Source: Stenotrophomonas africana
GTDB taxonomy: Bacteria; Pseudomonadota; Gammaproteobacteria; Xanthomonadales; Xanthomonadaceae
Length of the DNA: 64,000 nucleotides
Assembly (NCBI RefSeq): GCF_013004645.1
Contig: NZ_JABEME010000010.1
Coordinates: 1 to 64,000 of the forward strand
Direction of reading: 5' to 3'
The notes under the pieces are model-generated. The model was given only the letters and a program-made list of their open reading frames with translations. It was not told the origin of the DNA and did no database searches. Below, piece by piece: positions 50,225-52,511 of this stretch (its first letter is position 1; each line of letters starts with the position of its first letter). A program made the position numbers and the translations under genes.

Positions 50225-51034
50225 ATGCTGCAGATTCCCCCCGAAAACATCTGGATCGCGCTGGCGGTCACCCTCGCGGCCGGCCTCGCCACCGCCATCG
50301 GCAGCCTGCTGGTGCTGTTCTCGCGCCGCCCCAATCCGCGCCTGCTGGCGTTCGGCCTGGCTTTCGCCGGCGGCGCGATGGTCTATGTGTCGCTGTCAGA
50401 GATCCTCAACAAGTCCATTGCCTCCTTCGCACTGGCCTATGGAGAGCGCACCGGCTTCACCTACGGCACCCTGGCTTTCCTGCTGGGCGTGATCGTGATC
50501 GTGCTGATCGACCACTTCATTCCCAATCCGCATGACAGCCTCGACAAGCAGGACCCGGCGTTCCGCGAGAACAGCCGCGAGTACCTGAAACGGGTTGCCC
50601 TGCTGACCTCGGTCGCGATCACCGCGCACAACTTCCCGGAAGGGTTGGCAACCTTCTTTGCCACACTGGAAAGCCCATCGGTGGGCATGCCACTGGCTTT
50701 CGCCATCGCCATCCACAACATTCCCGAGGGCATCGCGATCGCGGTGCCGGTGTACTTCGCCACCCAGAACAAGTTCTATGCGTTCAGCGCCAGCCTGCTG
50801 TCGGGCCTGGCCGAACCGGTGGGCGCGGCGCTTGGCTACTGGCTGCTGTCCGGATCACTGTCGCACGCCACCTTCGGCTGGGTGTTCGGGCTGATCGCCG
50901 GCGTGATGGTGTTCCTGGCGCTGGATGAGCTGCTGCCGGCGGCCAAGCGCTATGCCAAGGGCCACGAGACGGTTTACGGGCTGGTGGCCGGCATGGGCAC
51001 GCTGGCGATCAGCCTGGTGCTGTTCAAGTGGTGA
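50225..51034 (+). CDS. zupT: ZIP-family zinc transporter
   Basis: The 269-residue protein has eight predicted helices with the metal-site motifs HNFPEG and HNIPEG in helices 4 and 5. ZupT imports Zn(II) and some other divalent metals without ATP. Length and motifs match E. coli ZupT. It is followed by the unusual palindromic intergenic region. Confidence 0.94.
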   Translation: MLQIPPENIWIALAVTLAAGLATAIGSLLVLFSRRPNPRLLAFGLAFAGGAMVYVSLSEILNKSIASFALAYGERTGFTYGTLAFLLGVIVIVLIDHFIPNPHDSLDKQDPAFRENSREYLKRVALLTSVAITAHNFPEGLATFFATLESPSVGMPLAFAIAIHNIPEGIAIAVPVYFATQNKFYAFSASLLSGLAEPVGAALGYWLLSGSLSHATFGWVFGLIAGVMVFLALDELLPAAKRYAKGHETVYGLVAGMGTLAISLVLFKW

Positions 51035-51095
51035 GGGGTTTGCGGCCAACGGACTGAGCCCCTCGCGGCTGGCGCATTCCACAGTATCGAGCGGT

Positions 51096-51197
51096 CACGG
51101 GCGGGGTCGGTTCGCGGGGGACGCCGTTAATCCGTCCTTGGAGGCTTGTCCGCGCCATCCATTGCGCGGACACCCCCGCGAACCGCCCCCGCCCGTG
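51096..51197 (+). repeat. palindromic module with 52-nt core, copy 1
   Basis: 25-nt arms (51096-51120 and 51173-51197) are complementary at 24 of 25 positions and enclose a 52-nt core starting ACGCCGT and ending GCGGACA. The core contains its own 9-bp hairpin (TGTCCGCGC/GCGCGGACA) with loop CATCCATT. It is not a SMAG element. Confidence 0.85.
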
Positions 51198-51266
51198 CCC
51201 CTCATTTTTCCGTGCGTGCCAGCCGCGCAATGAAAGAATGAAAAGCGAAGCCCGCGCTGCGCGCGT

Positions 51267-51290
51267 GAGTCGAGCGTGGCTCGACTCTAC
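51267..51290 (-). repeat. SMAG element between the two modules
   Basis: GAGTCGAGCGTGGCTCGACT followed by CTAC, i.e. GTAGAGTCGAGCC on the minus strand. Confidence 0.75.
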
Positions 51291-51331
51291 CCGGGCCGCC
51301 GCGCGGCCCGGGTCTGCTTTTCTTTTGATGT
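51289..51331. terminator. strong palindrome with flanking T-rich tract
   Basis: CCCGGGCCGC and GCGGCCCGGG flank CGC (51290-51312) and are followed by CTGCTTTTCTTTTG. On the other side, A-rich sequence (51230-51246) mirrors the T-tract. It probably terminates zupT transcription, and rluC transcription in the other direction. Confidence 0.6.
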
Positions 51332-51366
51332 TCCGTGGCTGACGCGCACGCGATCTGTCGAGGGGC

Positions 51367-51462
51367 GGTCGGGATGGGTTGGCGGGGGTGTCCGCGGCAT
51401 GGATGCCGCGGCCAAGCCCCCAAGGATGGGTTCACGGCGTCCCCCGCCAACCCATCCGGACC
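51367..51462 (-). repeat. palindromic module with 52-nt core, copy 2 (inverse)
   Basis: 22-nt arms (51367-51388 and 51441-51462) are complementary at 21 of 22 positions and unlike the arms of copy 1. The 52-nt core (51389-51440), read on the minus strand, matches copy 1 at 44 of 52 positions. The remaining part of the 51035-51536 gap holds no gene. Confidence 0.85.
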
Positions 51463-51536
51463 GACCAAAACCGGAACCCCATGTTGGACGCCAGCCGGAG
51501 GGGGCTGCGCCGGTTGGCCGGTCAGCCCCGAAGGGG

Positions 51537-52511
51537 TTACTTCAGGCGGTCCAGCGCCTCGGCCAGCTCATCCGCCAGCGGCGCGTTCAGCACGTACGGG
51601 CTCTTGCCGTCGTCCAGTGCGAATTCCAGCGAGGCCGCATGCAGGAACAGGCGCTTCAGTCCGATCTGCTCACGAAGCCGCTTGTTGACCGCCGGATCGC
51701 CGTATTTGTCGTCACCGGCCACCGGATGACCCAGGTGCTGGGCATGCACGCGGATCTGGTGGGTGCGACCGGTTTCGATACGCACCTCGCAGTACGAATG
51801 GCCGCCGCGACGCTCCAGCACGCGGAAGTGGCTGATCGATTCCTTGCCGATCGCGTTCACCTGCACATGGCGCTCGCCACCCTGGCGCAGGCCCACGTGC
51901 AGCGGCGCATCGACGGTCATCACGCCGTCGGGCATGCGCCCGGCCAGCAGGGTCAGGTAGCGCTTGCGGATACCGGCGCCATGGTCTTCACGCAGCAGCG
52001 CCTGCAGCTCGCTCAGGGCCGAACGCTTCTTGGCCACGATCAGCAGGCCCGACGTGTCGCGATCCAACCGGTGGACCAGCTCGAGGGTCTGGCCCGGGCG
52101 CAGCGCGCGCAGGGTCTCGATGGCGCCGAAGCTGATGCCGCTGCCGCCGTGGCTGGCTACGCCAGTGGGCTTGTTCAGGGCTAGCAGGCGGGCATCCTCG
52201 AAGACGATGGCCTGCTCCAGGCGGCGCATGAACGCCTCCGGCGGACCGGCCTTGTCTCCTTCTTCACTGAGACGAACCGGCGGCACGCGCACCTCGTCGC
52301 CCGCCTCCAGCTTGCGCTCGGCCTTGGCACGGCCACCATTCACCCGCACCTGGCCGCTGCGCACCAGCTTGTAGACCAGGCTGCGCGGGGCGCCCTTCAG
52401 CTGGCCGAGCAGGAAGTTGTCCAGACGCTGGCCGGCGCGGTCGGCGGGAACGGTGATCATGCGCACGGAAGGCTTGTCGCCAGCGGGCTTGGTGGGGTCT
52501 TGGGCAGTCAT
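51537..52511 (-). CDS. rluC: 23S rRNA pseudouridine synthase (RluC type)
   Basis: The 324-residue protein has an N-terminal S4 RNA-binding domain (RLDNFLLGQLKG, RVNGGRAKAERKL) and the RluA-family catalytic motif HRLDRDTSGLLI with the active Asp. RluC modifies 23S positions 955, 2504 and 2580. It diverges from rne, as in E. coli. Confidence 0.93.
   Translation of the reverse strand: MTAQDPTKPAGDKPSVRMITVPADRAGQRLDNFLLGQLKGAPRSLVYKLVRSGQVRVNGGRAKAERKLEAGDEVRVPPVRLSEEGDKAGPPEAFMRRLEQAIVFEDARLLALNKPTGVASHGGSGISFGAIETLRALRPGQTLELVHRLDRDTSGLLIVAKKRSALSELQALLREDHGAGIRKRYLTLLAGRMPDGVMTVDAPLHVGLRQGGERHVQVNAIGKESISHFRVLERRGGHSYCEVRIETGRTHQIRVHAQHLGHPVAGDDKYGDPAVNKRLREQIGLKRLFLHAASLEFALDDGKSPYVLNAPLADELAEALDRLK

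Follow-up and report, generated by a model that had tools for sequence, protein, structure and literature searches.

Which kind of element are the two palindromic modules, A and B, that are found in facing orientation where the genes zupT and rluC converge, and how can their centres agree so closely when the arms around them differ? The modules lie in a stretch of 64,000 nucleotides of Stenotrophomonas africana DNA that was analyzed as a whole (the window), and their features are collected in the Table. The earlier note had counted two 52-nt cores with 44 identities between self-complementary arms, as well as a C-G to G-C swap at core positions 35 and 44; the count was exact on repetition, and the swap is real, since both positions differ between the cores. 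The remaining differences fall at core positions 8, 11, 14, 22, 29 and 43, positions 11 and 22 forming a T-A/C-G swap. The arms, each pair of which encloses exactly 52 nt, are 28 nt long and 93% complementary in module A, and 26 nt long and 92% complementary in module B. Over the 25 positions flanking the core, 24 (A) and 23 (B) Watson-Crick pairs are formed, vs. 20 at the next best place when all positions of the window are taken with a 52-nt spacer, and the match of the two modules is far beyond chance. Folding z-scores calculated for both modules on both strands ranged from -5.8 to -9.0. Hereafter, the strand carrying GGA in the hairpin loops is referred to as the GGA strand, and its complement as the TCC strand.

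Table. Features of the zupT-rluC interval, with positions in the window (a dot: no strand assigned; GGA-loop strand: putative functional strand).
Feature	Positions	Strand	Basis or remark
zupT, zinc transporter	50225..51034	+	65 nt between its stop and the 94-nt R1 match in module A
Module A, GGA-loop strand	51093..51200	-	inverted repeats, R1 match and fold
Module A outer arm, pairs with 51173-51200	51093..51120	.	inverted repeat I2
Module A 52-nt core	51121..51172	-	core comparison
Module A hairpin loop CAAGGACG	51133..51140	-	fits CANGGANG
Module A hairpin loop AATGGATG	51156..51163	-	one mismatch to CANGGANG
Module A inner arm	51173..51200	.	inverted repeat I2
Spacer between facing modules	51201..51362	.	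other pairs have other small repeats inside
GTAG-tagged SMAG-type REP in spacer	51268..51290	-	read from the sequence; SMAG definition in the available text of PMC2613905
Terminator-like stem-loop, then CTGCTTTTCT, between modules	51289..51313	+	1 found vs. mean 0.5 in shuffles
Module B, GGA-loop strand	51363..51466	+	inverted repeats, R1 match and fold
Module B inner arm, pairs with 51441-51466	51363..51388	.	inverted repeat I4
Module B 52-nt core	51389..51440	+	core comparison
Module B hairpin loop CATGGATG	51398..51405	+	fits CANGGANG; GGA triplets 20 nt apart
Module B hairpin loop CAAGGATG	51421..51428	+	fits CANGGANG
Module B outer arm	51441..51466	.	inverted repeat I4
rluC, 23S rRNA pseudouridine synthase, converges on zupT	51537..52511	-	start codon uncertain

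The modules proved to be members of a large family. The covariance model R1 matched module A with 101.8 bits (51100-51193) and module B with 105.5 bits (51368-51461). When module B was compared by BLAST to the genome it comes from (G000; 4.57 Mb, 29 contigs), 111 candidates emerged, 40 of which were scored, while R1 at E<=0.001 revealed 114 copies upon scoring 150 of 4828 first-look candidates; 95 of these 114 places are full-length and 93 are distinct. Overlap with a called gene never exceeds 25 nt in the 114 copies, the genes being called with a codon model made for this analysis. The covariance-model search thus uncovered hundreds of copies of an intergenic family, in agreement with the dispersed palindromic unit suggested previously. 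Several contigs end inside a module (e.g., C8:1-72, C14:39928-39999, C29:1-72), which suggests that the assembly breaks at the repeat and that the true copy number may be higher.

In the same taxonomic family, R1 found the element in 38 of 149 genomes and 16 of 54 genera, with up to 28 candidates scored per genome. A second covariance model, R2, built from 49 diverse copies, matched 74 of 369 genomes (65 of 271 genera) of the class and 33 of 398 genomes of the phylum, all 33 being from this class, whose members are included in the 398. Six well-assembled positive genomes contained 119, 62, at least 150, 16, 7 and 9 copies, and neither R1 nor R2 gave a match in the congener G029. A pattern scan of GTDB species genomes retrieved at least 119 loci (L206-L324), all of which, judging by their titles, belong to groups of Gammaproteobacteria (Stenotrophomonas, Xanthomonas, Vibrio, Shewanella, Alteromonas, Cellvibrio, Marinobacter and Rheinheimera among them), except three labelled only Proteobacteria; 80 of these loci (23 Stenotrophomonas, 16 Xanthomonas, 41 others) were analyzed further. 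The class copy set used below comprised 119 matches, of which 107 served for gene context and folding after one duplicate, the locus L387 and ten weak or truncated rows had been dropped; 104 served for terminators and 117 distinct ones for mismatches.

Comparison of the copies demonstrated that the element is a three-way junction with strong covariation. On the TCC strand the order is P1 (the arms), AC, P2 (GCC, a five-base bulge, three pairs and a loop), T, P3 and the closing side of P1. In the ungapped 94-column alignment of 33 copies from this genome, 94.5% of the pairs are standard ones, compared to 75.9% in shuffles, and two-sided changes occur in 26 of 37 pairs; among the 49 diverse copies, double-change cells numbered 467 vs. 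138 in shuffles. The sequences of P1 and P3 are free, and in the class copies the GCC/GGC part of P2 varies as well, with compensation. What stays constant is the two loops and the bulge, which is mostly GTRAA or GCAAG and whose positions 7 and 10 vary in equal proportion (T/C 68:25 and A/G 68:25, n=93 copies from this genome). In P3 of copies from Cellvibrio, Alteromonas and others, the loop-2 stem is flanked by G.A pairs in tandem, which read UGA...GAA on the GGA strand. Pairing and covariation in other copies therefore uphold the earlier description of a structured element in which the core is conserved and the stems covary, and the observations named there as adverse to it (no core hits elsewhere, no covariation or arm pairing in other copies) were not made, since hits are abundant and both pairing and covariation hold. 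Between genera, the arms are unrelated yet complementary over approximately 20-40 bp, as followed by a lenient pairing walk. The claim that the arms of different copies are unrelated is accurate between species and often between copies, but not throughout this genome, where some arms, GGGTGGGTCCGGTTGC for instance, form classes shared by many copies.

Of the two strands, the GGA strand, the reverse complement of the core as it was written previously, appears to be the functional one. Selection acting on a single strand tolerates G.U and G.A, while the same sites read as A.C and C.T on the opposite strand, and such non-canonical pairs are tolerated on the GGA strand and hardly on the other one. 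In 117 distinct class copies, G.U cells numbered 61 on the GGA strand vs. 22 on the TCC strand, and G.A cells 91 vs. 6; in the arms alone the corresponding values were 48 vs. 12 and 44 vs. 4, spread over 29 vs. 11 (G.U) and 29 vs. 4 (G.A) genomes or named loci. The copies of this genome also favour the GGA strand in G.U cells (55 vs. 16), and in G.A cells within P3 (71 vs. 0, nearly all in two adjacent pairs), the preference in the arms being weak (13 vs. 10). The GGA strand has the lower predicted energy in 85 of 107 class copies and in 68 of 95 copies of this genome; for both window modules the TCC strand is predicted to fold slightly better. Taken by itself, the asymmetry points to a strand, and it fits single-stranded DNA as well as RNA.

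On the GGA strand, each loop shows the consensus CANGGANG in 92 of 93 distinct copies of this genome. Among 74 copies selected by R2 alone (43 pattern-selected copies were left out), loop 1 carries it in 74 and loop 2 in 71, a retrieval that is biased because 44 of the 49 seed sequences of R2 had been selected with fixed TCC in both loops. Variation in these 74 copies is located, entirely in loop 1 and almost entirely in loop 2, at the two N positions, which are occupied by three or four different bases, G being the commonest at the first N. According to the available text of the respective papers, the RsmA consensus is CANGGAYG and that of CsrA, derived by CLIP-seq, is AUGGAUG (PMC7705225), while a CsrA site is an ANGGAN hexaloop presented in a hairpin, with an optimum for two-site bridging above 18 nt (PMC7652899). 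The loops of the element agree with the CANGGAYG and ANGGAN forms, one loop of module A being off by one base. In the whole window, two consensus motifs within 40 nt on one strand occur at only two places, of which module B is one. In minimum-energy folds, both GGA triplets are unpaired in 60 of 107 class copies and 48 of 95 copies of this genome, and the corresponding triplets of the TCC strand are unpaired in 85 of 107 class copies. The gene csrA was detected in 69 of 74 genomes bearing the element (60 of the 61 good ones), a count made over element-bearing genomes only; it was not detected in G378, which is 98% complete and has 10 element matches.

Considering these sequence features, we assign a probability of about 0.6 to the reading that this is an RNA element presenting two RsmA/CsrA sites and dispersed as a TwoAYGGAY-like repeat. 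In RNA transcribed from the GGA strand, the long variable stem formed by the arms would close the three-way junction, which would display two CANGGANG hairpins with 20 nt between the GGA triplets, and one RsmA/CsrA dimer could hold the two loops in its two pockets. RsmA/CsrA would then bind transcripts containing the element, which would serve as dispersed decoys or as processed sponge RNAs. The arms would need only to pair, which may let each copy fold by itself, and the repeat may spread by mobility or recombination. That the GGA strand is transcribed, that RsmA/CsrA binds it, that it works as a sponge and that the element spreads in this way is what we infer from the observations above and below.

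A quite different role, that of a 3'-UTR structure acting on the TCC strand as an mRNA stabilizer, an exonuclease block or a part of a terminator at converging genes, is brought up by the gene context. In this genome the TCC strand is 3'-sense in 74 of 109 placed copies (p 2e-4), 71 of these lying 42-148 nt past a stop codon, a preference that a cis function of the GGA strand in mRNA would not predict; furthermore, a terminator-like stem follows module A, and Ysr224, a Yersinia small RNA by name, matches the TCC strand with 35.5 bits in the window and 51.3 bits in L376 (cut-off 70). Of the 107 class copies, 29 lie in (-,-) and 29 in (+,+) tandem gene pairs, 21 between convergent and 11 between divergent genes, 11 have a single identified neighbour and 6 overlap a called ORF. 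Thus, the location relative to stop codons, which the earlier note had proposed to inspect, is biased towards 3'-sense here and little elsewhere (51 vs. 41 outside Xanthomonadaceae), and the structured 3' RNA that it had considered is not tied to 3' ends, as the two orientations in tandem gene pairs outside Xanthomonadaceae are equal (29 vs. 29). Intrinsic terminators do not account for the location, as only 11 of 104 copies have one within 150 nt, and the non-canonical pairs favour the GGA strand. On balance, we regard a 3'-UTR function of the TCC strand as improbable.

The mutual orientation of the modules is variable across the class. In this genome, all 26 pairs separated by less than 1.2 kb are facing, with gaps of 103-324 nt. 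In class loci outside Xanthomonadaceae (according to their labels), modules no more than 500 nt apart faced each other in 10 cases; four loci had tandem copies, and a back-to-back pair was not encountered. Isolated pairs in G064 are facing in 15 cases, tandem in one and never back-to-back, while back-to-back neighbours occur inside arrays, among the 78 of its 119 copies listed; they were also seen in the Xanthomonas loci L225 and L236. No facing pair was present among the 52 of 62 copies listed for G065. Hence, the facing arrangement noticed in the window holds throughout this genome and is frequent in some others, but it does not extend to all. Avoidance of like arms within pairs is not supported, the mean identity being 0.45 vs. 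0.48 after re-pairing (P 0.24, 21 pairs, i.e., those of the 26 in which both copies are full-length).

The main rival of the RsmA/CsrA reading is a mobile DNA palindrome, the GGA strand of which folds as single-stranded DNA, in the manner of REP or IS200-like elements, for a transposase or another enzyme binding single-stranded DNA, the likeness to Csr sites being coincidental. The many dispersed, orientation-neutral intergenic copies favour it, facing pairs recall REP dimers, and the strand asymmetry suits single-stranded DNA equally well. Orthologous loci speak in its favour too, with modules gained, lost or affected by core deletions. Around copy C1:228211, 14 of 18 relatives were readable: nine with the module, three with remnants and two without it; in three of these modules (G098, G156, G183) loop 1 is interrupted by another palindrome, and the module of G155 is degenerate. 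Differences in arm class were observed among the orthologous loci as well. The core may have been inserted into palindromes that were already present, but no clean empty site was found among these loci. The second palindromic repeat (GCGAAGCA.TGCTTCGC) resides in loop 1 in the same three genomes at the L089 locus and, on the minus strand, at L028 of G000, as if loop 1 were its target site. In G284, two copies share arms that end together; three copies in G490 have identical cores and different arms.

On the other hand, several observations leave this rival less probable than the RsmA/CsrA reading. The tag GTAG/CTAC is absent from both modules, CGTC is only internal, and a module of about 100 nt is to be compared with 20-40 bp for a tagged REP palindrome. 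Y1 transposases were detected in 59 of 74 element-bearing genomes, the only ones covered by this count, and not detected in 15, including the element-rich G421, G498 and G256, where all 12 scored element candidates matched, although a transposase may have been lost from such genomes; mobilization by RAYT as a requirement is thereby weakened. No match was obtained in 72,556 plasmid and 50,697 phage records, nor in E. coli, with short queries of limited sensitivity. Finally, a mobile palindrome leaves unexplained why the loop variation is confined almost to the positions that are free in the Rsm consensus. As far as mobility itself is concerned, the element is probably mobile, and a mobile repeat that also serves as an RsmA/CsrA decoy is compatible with the observations.

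The behaviour of the arms could also be explained with no function at all, if template switching or gene conversion at self-complementary DNA kept them palindromic in the absence of selection. At the site of copy C28:98401, where 10 of 18 relatives were readable and six had a module, one arm class is shared by G000 and G180, another by G152, G071 and G181, and G163 has a third form; the arms are thus exchanged as a set. Such replacement as a block at one locus between species (class GGGTGGGTCC vs. GGCGGTGTCGG) agrees with a functionless element, as does the scarcity of wobble-type cells (G.U and A.C together 71 of 3348 in the copies of this genome). The fixed loops, the bulge and the strand-specific tolerance of G.U and G.A, however, are left without explanation, and we consider a functionless element very unlikely.

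The zupT-rluC locus itself was compared in relatives. Of 30 loci, 19 were readable in full, and one or two modules are present in G000, G149, G152 and G098, as well as in the partly readable G180. The product of rluC scored 338.8 bits, below the RluC cut-off of 378 and above that of the RluA subfamily. A consensus scan of the window revealed no sigma-70 promoter-like site in 50950-51600, and GacA-type boxes were no more frequent in the window than by chance. In the interiors of other module pairs of this genome (e.g., C12:301999, C24:202527) a recurrent palindrome, GGGGTCAGATCCG...CGGATCTGACC, was seen, which fits the GGGGWSAS motif given for the TIRs of tyrosine transposases in the available text of PMC3733652. 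The outer flanks of many paired modules here carry AGC/AAC repeat tracts (GCAACAGCAACAGC) followed by GGCATTCCGTGGGATGGCG before the outer arm, in either gene direction.

If the loops do bind RsmA/CsrA, a global regulator would have decoys of variable copy number spread over the chromosome, and a little-studied Rfam motif together with an unlinked Yersinia small RNA entry would be fragments of one large repeat family. The copies would then be candidates for RsmA antagonists in xanthomonads besides RsmU, and the family would exemplify a repeat whose structure persists although entire stems are exchanged, so that its homology escapes sequence comparison. A bolder and rather doubtful proposal is that of a distributed genomic sponge in many Gammaproteobacteria, in which few to more than 100 two-site RsmA/CsrA RNAs per genome, being selfish or domesticated repeats, would set the titrating capacity by their copy number, the arms diversifying yet still pairing so that each copy folds alone; in xanthomonads they might make up the main RsmA-titrating pool.

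Among known systems, REP and BIME elements (the SMAG, GTAG and CGTC families) are, like the element, dispersed intergenic palindromes often arranged as inverted dimers, as described in the available text of PMC3733652; the element differs from them in its conserved centre with variable arms, the lack of GTAG/CTAC, the length of about 100 nt and the three-way junction. With the sponge RNAs CsrB and RsmX/Y/Z and with RsmU of Xanthomonas it shares GGA motifs in hairpins; these RNAs have several sites each, in contrast to two per copy and many copies per genome in the element. RsmU is described in PMC7694677. The comEA 3' regions of L395, L397 and L400 (presumably Xanthomonas) carry a conserved RNA that has multiple GGA motifs and a terminator-like end and fits the description of RsmU, and the comEA 3' region contains CAAGGACG; R2 gave no match in seven comEA loci, where the RsmU region was identified by gene and layout, and identity of the element with RsmU was thus rejected.

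The closest relatives are found in Rfam. At gathering thresholds Rfam yields no match in the window, and 20 element loci, L332 being one of them, give nothing but tRNAs. With permissive filters, L332 matched TwoAYGGAY (RF01731) on the GGA strand with 44.0 bits (cut-off 43), whereas L329 (30.3 bits) and L344 (35.3 bits) remained below the cut-off, and the window copies gave no match even at E<=5. A permissive scan of 16 element loci detected TwoAYGGAY at E<=2 in two, one of them above the cut-off, and Ysr224 in six. The window copies were among those from which R2 was built, and R2 gives L332 a score of 90.3 bits. Through such intermediate copies the element can be recognized from sequence as a homologue of TwoAYGGAY, so the family is not wholly unknown; the earlier note could not name it, and a name is now available, although the window copies themselves stay below the Rfam cut-off. 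In both, an outer stem surrounds a pair of hairpins whose loops, on the same strand, read (A)NGGA, and the alignment of L332 places loop on loop. The Rfam model differs in having a long second hairpin where the element has a short one interrupted by the conserved bulge, and the loops of module B, AUGGAU and AAGGAU, are ANGGAN rather than strict AYGGAY within the same two-hairpin architecture. TwoAYGGAY, which shares the Rfam clan CL00106 with rsmX, was reported from the human gut, Gammaproteobacteria and Clostridiales as probably an RNA and probably not cis-regulatory; the available text of PMC2864571 mentions neither its copy number nor CsrA, and Rfam, unlike that paper, types it as Cis-reg. 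The Rfam-passing copy of L332 (1480-1640) stands beside a tuf-like gene; a hairpin and T6 come after it on the GGA strand, and it is possibly a free-standing RNA.

Ysr224 (RF02770) contains the same core in its consensus on the TCC strand, its best score being the one in L376, and its cut-off was never reached; it is modelled on the strand opposite to that of TwoAYGGAY, and no Rfam clan joins RF02770 and RF01731. The repeat nature of the family, its variable arms, facing pairs and copy number found no mention in those parts of the open-access literature that were available. TwoAYGGAY and Ysr224 look like two unlinked fragments of one large diverged repeat.
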